Assembly: GCA_020852515.1 (NCBI GenBank)
Contig: JADZAS010000030.1
Coordinates: 124,001-188,000, forward strand
DNA length: 64,000 bases
From: Phycisphaerales bacterium
GTDB lineage: Bacteria; Planctomycetota; Phycisphaerae; Phycisphaerales; UBA5793
Direction: 5' to 3'
Shown here: positions 8,072 through 43,570 of the stretch, one piece after another
Position numbering within the stretch: position 1 is the stretch's first letter
Layout: the number at the start of each line of letters is the position of its first letter
Made by a program: the position numbers and the translations under genes
Notes under the pieces: generated by a model
Seen by the model: only the letters and a program-made list of their open reading frames with translations
The model's database searches: none
Told to the model about the DNA's origin: nothing

Positions 8072-8534
8072 GGTAAGAAGAATCACATGGCGCTCTACCT
8101 CATGTCCATCTACGGCTCGCCCGCGCAAGAGTCGTGGTTCCGCAGCGCCTGGGCCAAGACCGGCAATGAAGCTCGACATGGGCAAGTCGTGCATCCGCTT
8201 CCGCAAGATCGCGGACCTGCCCCTCGACGTGATCGGCGAAGCCATGCGCCGCGTTCCGGTTGTCAATTACATCGCCTATTACGAGCAGAACATCAGGAAC
8301 GCGGGCAAGCAGAAGGCAGCCGCGAACGCAGCCGGGACGACCGCCAAGCCATCCGCGAAGAAGTCATCGTCAAGCGCTGCCAAGGGCGCCGCGAAGAAGC
8401 CGGCGAAGAAGTCCGAAGAGAAATCCGCCAGGTCATCCGCCAAGAAGTCAACCAGGAAGACGGCGGGCGCCAAGCCGGCCAGGAAGTCCATGTCGAAAGC
8501 CCCGGCGAAAGAGACCAGCCGCAGCGGGCGCTGA
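8072..8534 (+). pseudogene. Decayed DUF1801 gene with a histone-H1-like tail
   Basis: The frame containing ATG 8087 reads KKNHMALYLMSIYGSP...WFRSAWAKTG, and the +1 frame continues directly with KLDMGKSCIRFRKIADLPLDVIGEA. Together they give the contiguous second half of a DUF1801 domain. One extra base near 8162-8166 (AATGAAG where AAGAAG is expected) accounts for the break, and the first ~75 residues of the domain are missing. After the domain comes a ~75-residue Lys/Ala/Ser tail with AKKP and AKKS repeats resembling histone H1. A sequencing error at the frameshift cannot be excluded, but the missing 5' half argues for true decay. Confidence 0.75.
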
Positions 8535-8558
8535 GCGCGCTCTTCGTCAGCCCCCGCT

Positions 8559-8974
8559 TCAGGCGCGCAACGAGACGGGATACTCCCGCAGTCGCCACAT
8601 GAGTTCGTGGTCCAAGGTCATCGCATCAAGGGGATCGTCGGGATCGTCAACCCACTCGTTCGCCACGATGAGAATGAGCGCCGTGTTCGGCGGGTAATCC
8701 GCGTAGCGCACCACCAGCGCCTTCCAGAACGGCCCGACGGCGATAAACACGCTCGCCATCAGCGCCGCCGCGTGCGCCGCCAGTCGCGATCCCGTTTGAC
8801 CATGCGGCCGCATTCCGGGCACGTCCGTCCGGCCGCGGCGAGCATGTCATACCAGCACTTCGGACACCGCAGGCGCCCACGATGCCGATTCCAGAAGAGC
8901 GCCCAGCCCAGCGCGACGAGGCACGCCGCAAGACCGATCGACCAGAGTGTCCACTGGATCGGTGTCACGCCCAA
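8559..8974 (-). pseudogene. Frameshifted, truncated copy of the zinc-ribbon membrane protein family
   Basis: From ATG 8974 the frame encodes a membrane helix, CPKCWYDML...CPECG and RRTRRR, closely matching the N-terminus of the 480-aa protein at 5498-6940, and then stops. A second minus frame ending at 8559 carries the next block, ASVFIAVGPFWKAL followed by P(N/D)TALI. The continuation is intact apart from a shift near 8760. The rest of the ~300-residue soluble domain is absent. This fits a decayed partial duplicate. Confidence 0.75.
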
Positions 8975-9045
8975 CCATATCGGCGTGACCGATCACTCGC
9001 GCCGCTATCGGGCGGCATCGCGGCCCGGCGCCACCCTGGCCCGAC

Positions 9046-9795
9046 CTACATGTACAACCCGCCGTTGACGTTGATTTCCTGGCCGGTGATGTACGACGCC
9101 AGCGGCGAGGCGAGGAACGCCACCGCGTGGGCAACTTCCTCCGGCTCGCCGAAGCGGCCGATGGGAATGCCCGAGGTGATCTGCTCGCGGATGTTCTCGG
9201 GAACCTTCGCGGTCATGTCGGTGGTCACGAAGCCGGGCGCGACGCAGTTGACGGTGATGTTCTTGCGCGCCACTTCCTTGGCCAGCGACTTGGTCAGCGC
9301 GATCAGCCCCGACTTGGCCGCGGCGTAGTTCGCCTGACCGAAGTTGCCCGTCTGTCCGATGATCGAGGTAATGTTGATGATGCGGCCCCAGCCGGATTCG
9401 ATCATCTTCTTGAGCATCGCGTGTGTGATCAACGCCGGGCCGGTGAGGTTGACGTCCATCACCTCTTCCCACTGTTCGCGCGTCATCTTGGCAAACGTGC
9501 GGTCGCGGGTGATGCCGGCGTTGTTCACGAGGATCTGCACGATGCCGAAGTCCTCGTTGACGTGGCTGAGCATCTCGCGATTCTCTTCGTCGTTGGCGAC
9601 GTTGGCGCGATAGATCTTGGCCTTGCGTCCCTTGGCGACGATCTGGTCGCACACTTCGCGGGCGGCCTCCTCCGAGGTGGAGAAGTTGATGGCGACATCG
9701 CAGCCCACGTCAGCCATGGCCAGCGCGATGGCGCGGCCGATGCCGCGCGCGGCCCCGGTCACAAGACAGATCTTGCCTTCGAGCGACTGTGTCAT
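9046..9795 (-). CDS. phaB: Acetoacetyl-CoA reductase (PhaB/FabG-like SDR)
   Basis: 249 aa from ATG 9793-9795, with GAGAGG about 6 bp upstream; the earlier in-frame ATG at 9816 lacks a better site. It is a classical short-chain dehydrogenase: TGAARGIG cofactor loop (~residues 13-20), NNAG (~91), and the Ser-Tyr-Lys triad in NITSIIGQ...YAAAKSG. GWGRIINITS and NYAAAKSGLI are typical of PhaB/FabG. In this PHA cluster the likely reaction is NADPH reduction of acetoacetyl-CoA to (R)-3-hydroxybutyryl-CoA. FabG activity is the alternative. Confidence 0.85.
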   Translation of the reverse strand: MTQSLEGKICLVTGAARGIGRAIALAMADVGCDVAINFSTSEEAAREVCDQIVAKGRKAKIYRANVANDEENREMLSHVNEDFGIVQILVNNAGITRDRTFAKMTREQWEEVMDVNLTGPALITHAMLKKMIESGWGRIINITSIIGQTGNFGQANYAAAKSGLIALTKSLAKEVARKNITVNCVAPGFVTTDMTAKVPENIREQITSGIPIGRFGEPEEVAHAVAFLASPLASYITGQEINVNGGLYM

Positions 9796-9925
9796 GACGC
9801 ACCTCTCCCGTTGCATGCCACACCGGCTGGCGGAAAGCCTCGCCGGTTATTGGTCAGTGTACCAACTGCCGCGCGCAATTCCTACGGGGTGAATACCCTG
9901 CAATGGCGGCGGGGATTCGTTCGCC

Positions 9926-37675: not shown

Positions 37676-39334
37676 CTACTTCACCGCTTTGCTCTCTGCC
37701 AAGGCCTCGCTGATGCGCACGTCGAGATGCTTGTCGAAGGTCTTGCGGAACGCCTTGGCTCGGTCGTGCACGCCCCAGACCTCCATGCGACAGTCGGCGG
37801 CGGCTTCGATGATCAGCGTCACGCGGCTCTTGCCGTTCTTGCCTTCAGACTTCCGCGCATCACTCTCTTGCTTGCCGTTTGCCTTGTCCTGGCCAGCCGC
37901 ACCTTTCGCCTGGCCCGCTTCGAATCGCGCCGCGGTCACGGCGCCCATGTGGCTGCGGTCGAGGCACTCGGCCAGGCGCAGCAGTGTGCAGCATACTTCC
38001 ACCATGCGCTGATCTTCATCGGGCAGTGCGGCGAACTCGGCGAGCGACTTGCCCGGATACGACTTCTGGTGGTAGCGAGCGATGAGCGCAATGAGGCTGA
38101 TTTCGCGATCGTCAAAGCCCAGCAGCTCGCCGTGACGGATGAGATAGTGCGAGTGCACCTGGTGGTTGGCGTAGGAGACGAACGTGCCCACGTCGTGCAG
38201 CAGCGCGGCGTATTCGAGCAGTTCGCGCTCGGCCGGGCCGAGTTGGTGCAGGCCCAGGTCGCGAGCCGACTCGAAGAGCATGAGCGAGAGACGCGCGACC
38301 TGCAGCGCATGCGGCTCGTCAAACGAGCACGTGCGCCCCAGGCGCAGCACGCTGCGCTCGCGAAACGAGGTCGAAGTGAGTGGCACCGCGCGGGCGCTGC
38401 GCGCGAGATAATCGATGAGCAGGCCCTCGCGCAGGCCGCGCTCGCTGGCGCGGATGGATGGCACTTTGAGTTGCGTGAGCAGGGGTTCGAGGATTGCTGC
38501 GCCGGCGATGATGATGTCGGCGCGGTCAGGATTGATGCCCGGCGCCTTGCGCCGGGCCGCCAGCGGCATGTCGCACAGCTCTTCAATCATGCGGCTGAGA
38601 TCAGCGGTCGCGATGGCGTCATCGCGCTGCGCCGGTCGGCCCAGCGTCTGGCGCGCCGTGAGATCCACCATGTTCTGGATCGTGCCGCTTGAGCCGATGG
38701 CGAGGTCGATCTTGTGTTTGCCCAGCGCCTGCACGGCGCGAAGCGTCTTGTGGCGCACGTGCTCGGTGAGGCGCCGGTACGTCGCCTTGCTCACCGGCCC
38801 GTCGAAGCCGGGCTCGAAGAACATCGACGTGAGGCGGATGGCGCCGAGTTTGAGTGAGTCGATGAAGAAGTGCTCACTCTGGTTGCCGAGGACGACTTCG
38901 GTGCTGCCGCCGCCGATGTCGATGAACAGGGCCTTCTGATTGTCGATGCGCGTGCCGCTGGCGACGCCGAGGTAGATGAGTCGGGCTTCCTCCTTGCCTG
39001 AGATGACGTGGAGGTTGATCTTCGCTTCGCGGCGCATGCGCTCGAGGAACGCGCCGCGGTTGCTCGCCTCGCGCGTGGCGGAGGTGGCCACGGCGATGAT
39101 CTCGCTCGCGTCGCGGGCCCGGGCCATCTCGGCGAAGCGCCCGCACACAGCCACGGCGCGATCCATCGCGTCCTTCTGGAGTCGCCGGCTGGCAAACTCG
39201 CCTTCGCCCAGGCGGATGACCTCCTTCTGCTGCGAAAGCGTGGTGGTCGAGCCGTCGGCGGCGACGCTGACGAGCAGCAGGCGCGCCGAGTTGGTGCCGA
39301 GGTCAATGAATGCGACGATTCGGTCGTTGGGCAT
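37676..39334 (-). CDS. ppx: Exopolyphosphatase / guanosine pentaphosphatase (Ppx/GppA)
   Basis: 552 aa from ATG 39332-39334. An ASKHA ATPase-like fold: IDLGTNSARLLLV, DIGGGSTEVVLG, and IIAGAAILEPLL. A C-terminal HD domain follows (ALLHDVGTFV...ARYHQKSY). Near residues 480-500 is a Lys/Gly/Ala-rich low-complexity insert (KGAAGQDKANGKQESDARKSEGKNG) unusual for this family. It hydrolyses terminal phosphates of polyphosphate or pppGpp. It is divergent from ppk1 across 212 bp, so synthesis and breakdown genes may share control. Confidence 0.94.
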   Translation of the reverse strand: MPNDRIVAFIDLGTNSARLLLVSVAADGSTTTLSQQKEVIRLGEGEFASRRLQKDAMDRAVAVCGRFAEMARARDASEIIAVATSATREASNRGAFLERMRREAKINLHVISGKEEARLIYLGVASGTRIDNQKALFIDIGGGSTEVVLGNQSEHFFIDSLKLGAIRLTSMFFEPGFDGPVSKATYRRLTEHVRHKTLRAVQALGKHKIDLAIGSSGTIQNMVDLTARQTLGRPAQRDDAIATADLSRMIEELCDMPLAARRKAPGINPDRADIIIAGAAILEPLLTQLKVPSIRASERGLREGLLIDYLARSARAVPLTSTSFRERSVLRLGRTCSFDEPHALQVARLSLMLFESARDLGLHQLGPAERELLEYAALLHDVGTFVSYANHQVHSHYLIRHGELLGFDDREISLIALIARYHQKSYPGKSLAEFAALPDEDQRMVEVCCTLLRLAECLDRSHMGAVTAARFEAGQAKGAAGQDKANGKQESDARKSEGKNGKSRVTLIIEAAADCRMEVWGVHDRAKAFRKTFDKHLDVRISEALAESKAVK

Positions 39335-39546
39335 GGCGGCTCGTGGATTTCGGTGGGGCCTGCCCGGGCGGACGCTGCCGCAGACAGGCGGGCGAATGTG
39401 CCGGCAAGCGTAGACGGAACGCAGCGGCCAAAGTCGCGGGAGGTGAAGGCGGACCATCCATTAGCCGAATTCTAACATACCGAGCGCTTGCACGCGCGTG
39501 CCCGCGGCGATACCTTCACCCACTGCGCGGCGGGCGCGGAGGGTCG

Positions 39547-41712
39547 ATGAACGCCAATTCTCCGGATTCGGTGCATCTTGCCAGTGAGGCCGGCCAAAGC
39601 GCTGCGCCTCCCGCCGAGCCGCGTGCGCTCCAGCCGGGCGATCTGCTCAACCGCGAACTCTCATGGCTCGAGTTCAATCGTCGCGTGCTGCACGAGGCGA
39701 TGGATGACCGCACGCCGCTGCTTGAGCGCGTGCGCTTCCTGGCGATCTTCACGAGCAACCTCGACGAGTTTTTCATGAAGCGCGTCGGCGGGCTCAAGCG
39801 CCAGGTCGCCGCGGGCGCCGTGCCGCGCACGCCCGACGGCCTGACGCCGGCGCAGCAACTCAGCGCCATCCGGCAGACCGTGATCCCCATGCTGGAGCAG
39901 CAGGCGCAGACCGATCGCGAGATCATCCGGCCCGCGCTGGCCGAGCGCGGCATCGGCATCGTCAAGTGGCATGATCTCACCGGGCCGGAACTGCGCTTCG
40001 CTTCGCAGTACTTCCGCGAGAACGTGTTCCCCGTGCTCACGCCGCTGGCGGTCGATCCGGGTCATCCGTTCCCGTTCATCTCAAACCTCTCCACGTCGCT
40101 GGGCATCACGTTGCGGCACCCCGAGAGCACCGAGCACCTCTTTGCGCGCGTGAAGATTCCCGAAGTTCTGCCGTCGCTCATTCGCGTCAACCCGCAGGAC
40201 AACGGCAGCGGCGTGTATCGCTTCGTCACGCTGCACGAACTCATCGCGCGCAACCTCGACGATCTCTTCCCGGAGATGGTCATTCTTGACATCATGCCCT
40301 TCCGCGTGACGCGCAACGCCGACATCGAGCGCGATGAAGAAGACGTCGAAGACCTGCTCGAATCCATCGCGCAGGAGATGCGCCAGCGGCGCTTCGAGAA
40401 GATCGTGCGCCTCGAGCACGGACCGGATCCGAATCCGGAGATTCTCGACTTCCTCATCGCCGAACTCGAACTTTCGCGCAGCGACGTGTACGAGCTGCCC
40501 GGCGAACTCGATTACAGCGACCTCGCGCCGATCGCGGACCTGCCCATTGCCGACCTGCGCTTCCGCGCGTGGACCCCGGTGACGCCGCCCGCCTTCGCCG
40601 ACGAATCGACGGATATCTTCAGCGTCATCCGCAACGGCGATCAACTCGTGCACCACCCGTACGACAGTTTCAGCGCCAGCGTCGAGCGCTTCGTAGCGGC
40701 GGCGGCGACGGATCGCAACGTGCTGGCCATCAAGATGACGCTCTATCGCACGGGCGATGACAGCCCGTTCGTGCGGCGGCTCATCCAGGCGGCCGAACTG
40801 GGTAAGCAGGTCGTGTGCCTCGTCGAGCTCAAGGCGCGCTTCGACGAAGAGCGGAACATCCAGTGGGCCCGCACGCTCGAAAAGGTCGGCGTCCACGTGG
40901 TGTACGGCGTGCTCGGGCTCAAGACGCACACGAAGACGGTGCTGGTGGTTCGTCGCGAAGGAAGCGGACTGCGCTCGTACGCGCACATCGGGACGGGCAA
41001 CTATCACGTGGGCACTTCGCGGCTCTACACCGACCTCGGGCTGTTCACGTGCAACCCGGCCATCACCGAGGAACTCATCGACCTGTTTCACTTCCTCACC
41101 GGCCGGTCGCGCAAGCGCGACTACCACAAGCTGCTCGTGGCGCCGGTGAACATGCGCGAGCGCTTCATCGCAATGATCGATCGCGAGATTCTCAATTGCC
41201 GCGCCGGCCGGCCGTGCGGCATCGTGGCGAAGATGAACAGCCTCGAAGACCTGGGCATCTGCGCGGCGCTCTACCGCGCTTCGGGCGAGGGCGTGCCGAT
41301 CGATCTGATCGTGAGAGGCTTCTGCTGTTTGCGGCCAGGCGTGCCGGGGCTGAGCGAGAACATCCGCGTGATGTCGATTGTCGGACGGCTCCTCGAGCAT
41401 GCACGCCTGTTTCACTTCCGGGCCGGCTGCGAGAATCCGGCGCACGGCGAGTTCTACTTCGGCAGCGCCGACTGGATGTACCGCAACCTGTCCAACCGCG
41501 TCGAGGCGATCGTCCCGGTCGAGGAGCCAGCCCTGCGCGAGAAGTGCTGGGAGATCCTGCGCATCCAGCTCGCCGACCAGAGGCAGACGTGGGATATGGC
41601 CAGCGACGGCACATATCTGCAGCGCACGCCGCGCGACGCCGCGGCCGAACTGGGCTGCCACGAGCAGTTCATGCGCCTGGCCAGGCAGCGCGCCGGGGAC
41701 GGCGAACAGTAA
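39547..41712 (+). CDS. ppk1: Polyphosphate kinase 1
   Basis: 721 aa from ATG 39547 with GGAGG upstream; in-frame upstream ATGs lie in ppx or the promoter region. N-terminal block LNRELSWLEFNRRVLHEA, FTSNLDEFFMKRVGGLK. Catalytic region with VVCLVELKARFDEERNIQWARTLEKVGVHVVYGV, and the histidine-containing YAHIGTGNYHVGTSRLYTDLG (autophosphorylated His in the HIGTGNYH block). It makes polyphosphate from ATP. Linked polyphosphate and PHA loci suggest a lineage that stores reserves. Confidence 0.97.
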   Translation: MNANSPDSVHLASEAGQSAAPPAEPRALQPGDLLNRELSWLEFNRRVLHEAMDDRTPLLERVRFLAIFTSNLDEFFMKRVGGLKRQVAAGAVPRTPDGLTPAQQLSAIRQTVIPMLEQQAQTDREIIRPALAERGIGIVKWHDLTGPELRFASQYFRENVFPVLTPLAVDPGHPFPFISNLSTSLGITLRHPESTEHLFARVKIPEVLPSLIRVNPQDNGSGVYRFVTLHELIARNLDDLFPEMVILDIMPFRVTRNADIERDEEDVEDLLESIAQEMRQRRFEKIVRLEHGPDPNPEILDFLIAELELSRSDVYELPGELDYSDLAPIADLPIADLRFRAWTPVTPPAFADESTDIFSVIRNGDQLVHHPYDSFSASVERFVAAAATDRNVLAIKMTLYRTGDDSPFVRRLIQAAELGKQVVCLVELKARFDEERNIQWARTLEKVGVHVVYGVLGLKTHTKTVLVVRREGSGLRSYAHIGTGNYHVGTSRLYTDLGLFTCNPAITEELIDLFHFLTGRSRKRDYHKLLVAPVNMRERFIAMIDREILNCRAGRPCGIVAKMNSLEDLGICAALYRASGEGVPIDLIVRGFCCLRPGVPGLSENIRVMSIVGRLLEHARLFHFRAGCENPAHGEFYFGSADWMYRNLSNRVEAIVPVEEPALREKCWEILRIQLADQRQTWDMASDGTYLQRTPRDAAAELGCHEQFMRLARQRAGDGEQ

Positions 41713-41872
41713 CGCGGCGGCCGGCCGGTACGCGTGTTCGACTTCCGGTCGGTACGCACGAATCCACTTTCTTTGTGCAATTCAGCGCGTTCGTAAGCCG
41801 GCGGCCGCCCGCCGTGCGTTATGATGTTCAGAGTCTCGCTGGCCCGAACTTGCGATTGAGATGGGAGGCCTC

Positions 41873-43192
41873 ATGAAATCGTCACTGGCTTTGGTTGCGA
41901 TGTTCGGATGCGCTGCGGCGCTGGCCGGTCCGCCTGAATTCGAACCTCCGTTCCGCGTCAGCGCGGGCGATGAGTGGATCGACGTGGACATCGGCCACGC
42001 GGCGCCGTGGGTCGCGGATTGGAACGGCGACGGGAAGAACGACCTGCTCGTCGGCCAGTTCGGCGACGGCAAGATGCGCATCTACCGCAACGTCGGCAGC
42101 AACGCCGAGCCGAAGTTCGACAGCGACTTCGCGTGGTTTCAGACGCGCAAGGGGCTCGGCTCGATCCCGTCGGGCTGATGCGTCGGCTTCGGTCCGCAGT
42201 TGGCGGACCTCAACGGCGACGGGATGCGCGATGTGATCTCCGGCTCGTGGCCAGGCGAAATCTTCTTCTTCGCCGGCGCCCGCGACGGTGCGTACGAAGA
42301 GCCGATCAAACTCGAAAGCAGCAGCGGCGGCGACGTGAACGTGGGCCAGGCGTCGGCCGCGGCGGTGACGGACTGGGACCGCGACGGGGATCTCGATCTC
42401 CTCCTCGGCACCATTGAAGGCGACGTCTTCTTCGTGCCCAACGTCCACGAAGGCAAGGGCGTGCCGAAGTTCGGCGACGCGCAGCAACTGGCGGCCGGCG
42501 GCGAGAACATCCGCGTGAAGGGCGATGCCGGGCCGACCGTGGCCGACTGGGATGGCGACGGCGCGGATGATCTCATCTGCGGCGACGGCCAGGGCGGCGT
42601 GTGGTTCTATCGCGCCACGGCACGCGGCGAAAGGCAGATGCCCACGCTCGCCGCCGCCATCGCGCTCGTGCAGCCGATGTCGGATGAAGAGATGATGGCC
42701 GCGTACACCAACCCGACTGACGACATCGAAGGCAAACTCATCAAGCGCCCCGGCGCGCGCACCAAGGTCTGCATCGCGGACTGGAATGGCGACAGCCGTC
42801 TCGACGTGCTCGTAGGCGACTTTCAGACGACGACCGCCGAGCAGCCGAACCTGTCGGATGAAGACATCGCGGAGCGCGATCGAATCCGGGAGCGGCAGCA
42901 GACCGTGATGACGCGCTACCAGCAACTCTGGGCGGTGCTCGACGCCAAACTCCGCGAGCGCGTCGGCGTCGGACCCGAAGAGGAAATGACGACCGAGCAG
43001 CAGGAGAAGTGGGGCCAACTCTGGGATGAAGTTTCCGCCGAGGTCGAGGGCTTCAACGAGGTTTCGACCGAACTGCAGGAACTCTGGCCGCAGTTGGCGC
43101 GTTTCGAACCCGAACGGCGGAACCACGGCTGGGTCTGGGTCTACTTGCGCAAGGCCGCGGACGCGAGCGCGTCTGCCGAGCCGGGGCCGTAG
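41873..43192 (+). CDS. FG-GAP/VCBS repeat protein with one in-frame TGA (possible selenoprotein)
   Basis: 439 codons from ATG 41873, with GGGAGG upstream and a signal peptide (SSLALVAMFGCAAALA). FG-GAP calcium-loop repeats of the DWNGDG / DLNGDG / DWDRDGDLDLLLG / DWDGDGADDLI type make a partial propeller, and the C-terminal ~150 residues are helical and acidic. Codon 102 is TGA (42176-42178) in ...IPSG-U-C-VGFGPQLADLNGDG; the frame is uninterrupted on both sides and reads repeat sequence throughout. Either Sec is inserted or this is a point mutation or error. No catalytic domain is visible. Confidence 0.8.
42191..42209 (+). promoter_or_regulatory. Hairpin in SECIS position downstream of the in-frame TGA
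   Basis: A perfect 7-bp stem, GGTCCGC / GCGGACC, closes a five-base loop AGTTG. The loop starts 19 bases after the TGA and has G at its second position. Known bacterial SECIS hairpins lie a similar distance from UGA with G early in the apical loop. Function is not shown by sequence alone. Confidence 0.35.
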
Positions 43193-43570
43193 AGCGGACC
43201 GAGGGGCGACTGGACAGTGGGCGAGGGCGCAGGCCGAGACGAGCCGCGACTGTGAAGGTCGATTGGGCAACCCCGTCATTCCCGCGCAGAGCCTGCTCCT
43301 GCGAAGGGCGGGGCGGAACTCCACGGGCGTGCAGTCGCGCACGTACTCGTCTTCGAAAAATGAACGTCCCAGCCCGCTCGACTGGATGCCTGCCTTCGCA
43401 GGCATGACGACACGTGCCGCGACAGCACGTGCCAGAGTTCGTCACTTCCGCGTTCTCGCAGCTAGGATGCGTTCGGCGCGACAACTTCGCACCGCATCAA
43501 CAAAAACAGCGCACACCGCCGGTGCGGTGTGCGCTGTGAAAGGCGATGACCTCGCAGGTCATCTCGCGGC
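43193..43570. repeat. Intergenic region with an inverted REP pair and a terminator
   Basis: From 43275 a GTCATTCCCGCG... REP (with a ~13-bp insertion in its stem region) and, at 43384-43408, GGATGCCTGCCTTCGCAGGC followed by ATGAC in the opposite orientation form a REPIN-like pair separated by ~60-110 bp, with CGTGCAGT just inside. A similar pair is at 62480-62587. No gene seen in this stretch. Confidence 0.65.
43502..43537 (-). terminator. Intrinsic terminator of the degP-like gene
   Basis: A 14-bp stem ACAGCGCACACCGC / GCGGTGTGCGCTGT with loop CGGT (43506-43537). On the minus strand it is followed by TTTTTG (43501-43505). It lies 34 bp beyond the protease stop. Confidence 0.9.

Follow-up and report, generated by a model that had tools for sequence, protein, structure and literature searches.

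Most known selenoproteins have thioredoxin-like or metalloenzyme folds. The 119 prokaryotic families or subfamilies of selenoproteins in a review of May 2026 include no FG-GAP, VCBS or propeller entry (PMC13188914), and earlier surveys make no mention of FG-GAP or VCBS proteins (PMC2398784; PMC5029168; PMC9312934; PMC12013277). The open-access literature searched for FG-GAP/VCBS together with selenoproteins held nothing relevant; an unlisted report cannot be excluded. FG-GAP/VCBS proteins such as the integrin alpha propellers, the PVL lectin and CRTAC1 share calcium-type DxDGD repeats and a predicted β-propeller with the family described here. None of them is listed as a selenoprotein, whereas this family carries an invariant selenocysteine (Sec) or Cys, followed by Cys, ahead of its second repeat.

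The window, meaning the whole stretch of 64,000 nucleotides of Phycisphaerales DNA that was analysed, contains one gene of this family. Its single FG-GAP frame is open from an ATG at 41873 to a TAG at 43190-43192 except for a TGA at codon 102 (42176-42178), immediately followed by a TGC codon for Cys. The features of the gene are as follows.

41863..41868, plus strand: likely ribosome-binding site GGGAGG for the ATG at 41873 (direct sequence reading)
41873..43192, plus strand: coding sequence of the inferred FG-GAP selenoprotein, 439 amino acids if the TGA is read, with Sec as residue 102 and a TAG stop
41873..41929, plus strand: probable signal peptide, hydrophobic N-terminus MKSSLALVAMFGCAAALAG (sequence, by eye)
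41948..42835, plus strand: five FG-GAP-type (DxDGD) repeats, predicted β-propeller (Pfam FG-GAP_3; AlphaFold2 model)
42176..42178, plus strand: in-frame TGA, inferred Sec codon, residue 102 (TGA or a Cys codon in 158 aligned homologues)
42179..42181, plus strand: TGC, second member of the Sec-Cys pair (141 of 142 TGA members have Cys here)
42191..42209, plus strand: SECIS-like hairpin with a 7-bp stem and the loop AGTTG at 42198-42202 (folding, family conservation, SECIS rules)
42857..43099, plus strand: predicted helical insertion from the last repeat to the closing strand (model secondary structure, residues 329-409)
43115..43144, plus strand: conserved closing strand GWVWVYLRK (homologue alignment, model)

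The original prediction, made from the sequence alone, had claimed an in-frame TGA at codon 102 with the frame intact on both sides and an adjoining Cys codon, and this held exactly. Its description of a perfect 7-bp stem with an AGTTG loop at 42191-42209, 19 bases from the TGA and with G at position 2, held as well, and its remark that FG-GAP proteins were not known to it as selenoproteins agrees with the 119-family list (PMC13188914).

The window protein scores 80.9 bits with the Pfam model FG-GAP_3 (PF13517), whose cut-off is 26.9, and matches no NCBIfam model. In its AlphaFold2 model (mean pLDDT 90.8, pTM 0.85) a helical insertion separates the strand repeats from the closing strand; the number of repeats or blades, five, is inferred from the count of DxDGD motifs. 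By sequence order, the Sec-Cys pair falls just before the second repeat. Aligned homologues have a similar hydrophobic, signal-peptide-like start, as judged by eye without a predictor. A long antisense ORF (41882-43405) was dismissed, by inference only, as a by-product of the G+C-rich coding sequence.

Full-length homologues of the gene read through the TGA. In 397 searched genomes of the same class, many families proved to have homologues that share the position of this TGA. With a profile built from 22 members, homologues turned up in 102 of the 392 genomes that sampled the whole phylum, nearly all of these matches having exactly one TGA, and in 17 of 251 genomes within the order. Two more relatives (L057 and L058) occur in Planctomycetota records. 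The family is thus common in the phylum, often with several copies per genome. Among 158 aligned homologues the codon at the position is TGA in 142, TGC in ten and TGT in six; nine other extracted sequences, remote or misaligned proteins, stand outside this count, and the match in genome G462, a different FG-GAP protein, was left out of the TGA forms. Of the 142 TGA forms, 141 have Cys directly after the Sec position; the sole exception (L197, G545:C58) has Arg there and an intact hairpin. In a tree of 157 members, three changes separate Sec and Cys forms, located in family f5 of the window's order, in family f50 and in genome G573. Distant clades (L136, L137, L138, L050 and L056) keep the UC pair in different surroundings (SGUCQGARPR, AGUCIGSYPQ), and the family is therefore broader than its core. 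As a separate observation, the family gene in genome G167 (L114, about 8292-9812) lies beside a Sec-containing selD, in divergent orientation.

These counts bear on the reading that the TGA is a real stop, making the gene a pseudogene, or an assembly error for TGC or TGG. In its favour, TGC and TGA differ by a single base, and the original prediction had kept a mutation or error of this kind as a possibility. Against it, the TGA recurs in 131 distinct sequences from many families, with frames intact and motifs conserved on both sides. Since independent genomes in many families have the same TGA, a single-base error cannot be the general explanation, and the real-stop reading as a whole is left with next to no standing.

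The preferred reading, decoding as Sec, gains further support from the RNA. Published rules for bacterial SECIS elements call for a hairpin directly downstream of the UGA, 16-37 nt away, with a stem of 4-16 bp, a loop of 3-9 nt, G in one of the first two loop positions and an energy of -7.5 kcal/mol or lower (PMC13188914). The hairpin at 42191-42209 meets all of them: its stem has 7 bp, its 5-nt loop AGUUG starts 19 nt past the TGA with G at loop position 2, and it folds at -12.7 kcal/mol (z = -4.2; none of 200 shuffles as good). The whole 60-nt stretch after the TGA folds little better than its shuffles (z = -1.2), and no Rfam family matches at the hairpin. Taken in one gene only, the element would be suggestive and no more, but chance comes nowhere near explaining its presence in 131 distinct homologous genes. 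These 131, the distinct sequences among the TGA members, were used for all hairpin counts, and 124 of them satisfy the stem and loop-G rules. A core of four pairs (positions +18 to +21 from the TGA with +27 to +30) is intact in 127 of the 131 TGA genes versus none of 16 Cys genes (p = 5e-18). The p-values from hairpin and codon counts are nominal because the sequences are related. Exceptions are four TGA genes whose core stem has a single mismatch and three with no G in the first two loop positions.

Codon usage within the stem follows the pairing. The stem codon for Val is GTG in 101 of 101 cases, versus 81 of 229 elsewhere in the same stretches, and that for Pro is CCA in 81 of 119, versus 7 of 146 elsewhere; pairing dictates codon choice at both positions. 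In all 28 cases in which Ala (GCG) takes the place of Val, Pro on the opposite side is encoded by CCG and not by CCA. A covariation test on 67 sequences placed four of five measures above all 500 shuffles, with four of six stem pairs varying on both sides, and shifting the partner by one to three columns cut the share of cells that pair from 94% to at most 47%. The stem is also kept through compensated changes of the protein (CCATC/GATGG in L148; CCGCT/AGCGG in L196 and L200; CTGCA/TGCAG in L198). The hairpin is thus likely to be under selection as an RNA structure, covarying even against the protein sequence.

The source genome (G000, 96.7% complete) carries one Sec cluster, on contig 16, with selD (348 bits), selB (363 bits), selA (531 bits) and a tRNA-Sec (68 bits) with the anticodon TCA (UCA). 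Its selD has an in-frame TGA of its own, within NCAGUAGKLS, followed by a hairpin GCAC-AGGTT-GTGC that is identical in the selD of a second species; family members from the same genus have the hairpin CCGC-AGGTT-GCGG, with the same loop. Across 80 genomes in which selA was sought, it scored over the cut-off in 47 of 48 genomes with TGA forms versus one of 15 with core Cys forms (nominal p = 6e-12), the one being G573. In the remaining genome with a TGA form (G345:C1), neither selA nor selB is over the cut-off. Its single-contig assembly is rated at 87% completeness and may lack a region, and the case may reflect an assembly gap or a gene left over after loss of the machinery.

A second alternative is that the UGA is read through without Sec, for instance as tryptophan or by leaky termination. 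The highly conserved context after the TGA could serve such readthrough too. Against this, the position is Cys, never Trp, in core homologues; the downstream hairpin obeys the rules for bacterial SECIS elements and has been lost from Cys forms; TGA forms track selA; and many genes of the same family terminate with TGA, which is therefore a normal stop codon there. This alternative, too, is almost entirely ruled out. Decoding of the TGA at 42176-42178 as Sec is instead supported by the shared in-frame TGA, complete machinery, a selected SECIS-like structure and replacement by Cys in lineages without the machinery, and we consider it very likely in the absence of peptide or selenium-labelling data. 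The candidate selenoprotein of the original prediction is thereby supported far beyond one genome. Two checks that it had proposed, for sel genes in the genome and for homologues with Cys or a recurrent TGA and hairpin, both favour Sec: selA, selB, selC (tRNA-Sec) and selD are all present, and the position is Cys in 16 homologues and TGA in 142, with the hairpin conserved.

What the Sec-Cys pair does is less firmly supported. A DsbD_N domain over the Pfam cut-off is fused to the C-terminal side of five TGA forms (L028, L091, L092, L149 and L188) and five Cys forms (L044, L102, L104, L105 and L106), and two redox cysteines are visible in the sequences of these fused domains (YQCCDENSCLPP in L028). 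The f50 genomes encode a DsbD_N-like protein separately, in the next gene, with the motif YQACDEFRCLSP visible in L130; the match of the next gene in L244 is below the cut-off (22.8 vs 25). One relative, L091 (G581:C7, 508-2667, minus strand), is a triple fusion of Sec FG-GAP propeller, DsbD_N and peroxiredoxin, with a second in-frame TGA at the peroxidatic position of its AhpC-TSA domain. In a genome of the window's genus, a pyridine-nucleotide disulphide oxidoreductase with FeS domains is encoded near L112 on the same strand. Together these associations favour a redox role outside the cytoplasm. No conserved operon partner was found, and gene neighbourhoods are not conserved across the family genomes examined; the window gene has ppk, ppx and an HtrA-type protease for neighbours, and genes elsewhere are unrelated. 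The window gene itself lacks both a DsbD-like domain (a Pfam search of its sequence gave no DsbD_N match) and a redox neighbour, and function is therefore the weak part of the analysis. Just upstream, at 37676-41712, a ppx/gppA-type phosphatase gene (minus strand) lies beside a polyphosphate kinase gene (plus strand), and related genes also occur near the family gene in genomes of the same genus.

Two other roles would leave the selenoprotein reading intact. The Sec-Cys pair might bind a metal or metalloid (mercury, copper or arsenic) without redox cycling: some metal-related selenoproteins, the MerB-like SaoL with its CU motif among them, have Cys and Sec side by side (PMC13188914), and the next gene in one genome (L236) encodes an E1-E2 ATPase with an HMA domain. 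Repeated fusion to DsbD_N and one fusion to a peroxiredoxin speak against this role, as does the lack of consistent metal-related neighbours in the neighbourhoods examined, and we regard it as unlikely. Alternatively, the propeller could be a binding scaffold with a Sec-Cys bond that is structural or serves attachment. FG-GAP propellers are mostly binding scaffolds, and integrin alpha and the PVL lectin are among the sequence or fold matches. Selenium would be needless for a purely structural bond, however, and Sec is kept in nearly all sampled members from selA-bearing genomes, making this role very unlikely.

We return to a redox role of the Sec-Cys pair outside the cytoplasm, which we favour by a modest margin, the activity itself being inferred. 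In the mechanism that we propose, SelB with Sec-tRNA-Sec would insert Sec at residue 102 after binding the hairpin that lies 19 nt past the UGA. The product would be an exported, calcium-type FG-GAP β-propeller in which Sec and Cys stand side by side (GUC or WUC), a pair that may cycle between a selenenylsulfide and the reduced state outside the cytoplasm. It may be reduced by, or pass electrons to, a DsbD-α-like domain, which in some relatives is part of the same polypeptide or encoded by the next gene. Peroxide or thiol substrates would be the most likely targets; any specific substrate is inference only. A bolder reading is of a widespread, uncatalogued family in which the FG-GAP propeller acts as a selenium-dependent redox enzyme with a DsbD-α-like carrier outside the cytoplasm, Sec being mostly kept and replaced by Cys about three times, twice where the machinery is absent; we hold this reading in full to be only slightly more likely than not.

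An FG-GAP family that very likely contains Sec, with members in more than a hundred genomes of one phylum, is thus absent from the current catalogue. Standard gene calling is expected to truncate its genes at the UGA, and the proteins are therefore probably misannotated. The clean split between Sec and Cys forms, tied to machinery and hairpin, offers a natural set of cases in which to test how SECIS elements are recognised outside model bacteria. Among solved structures, Foldseek found only distant propellers and no close homologue (best query TM-score about 0.37). The DsbD N-terminal (α) domain (PF11412) occurs as a C-terminal fusion in relatives and is absent from the window protein, and the fused relatives differ from DsbD itself in lacking its membrane and γ domains. 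Likewise, a Sec-peroxiredoxin domain (PF00578) is present in L091 and not in the window protein. With bacterial selenoproteins that have adjacent Sec and Cys (the CU-motif SaoL, HgcA and SaoC), the family shares a UGA-encoded Sec and a neighbouring Cys. Those proteins have another fold, none is an FG-GAP protein, and their order is CU (PMC13188914), whereas that of the window family is UC; if the present reading is true, the FG-GAP propeller with its Sec-Cys pair is a new scaffold for selenium chemistry.
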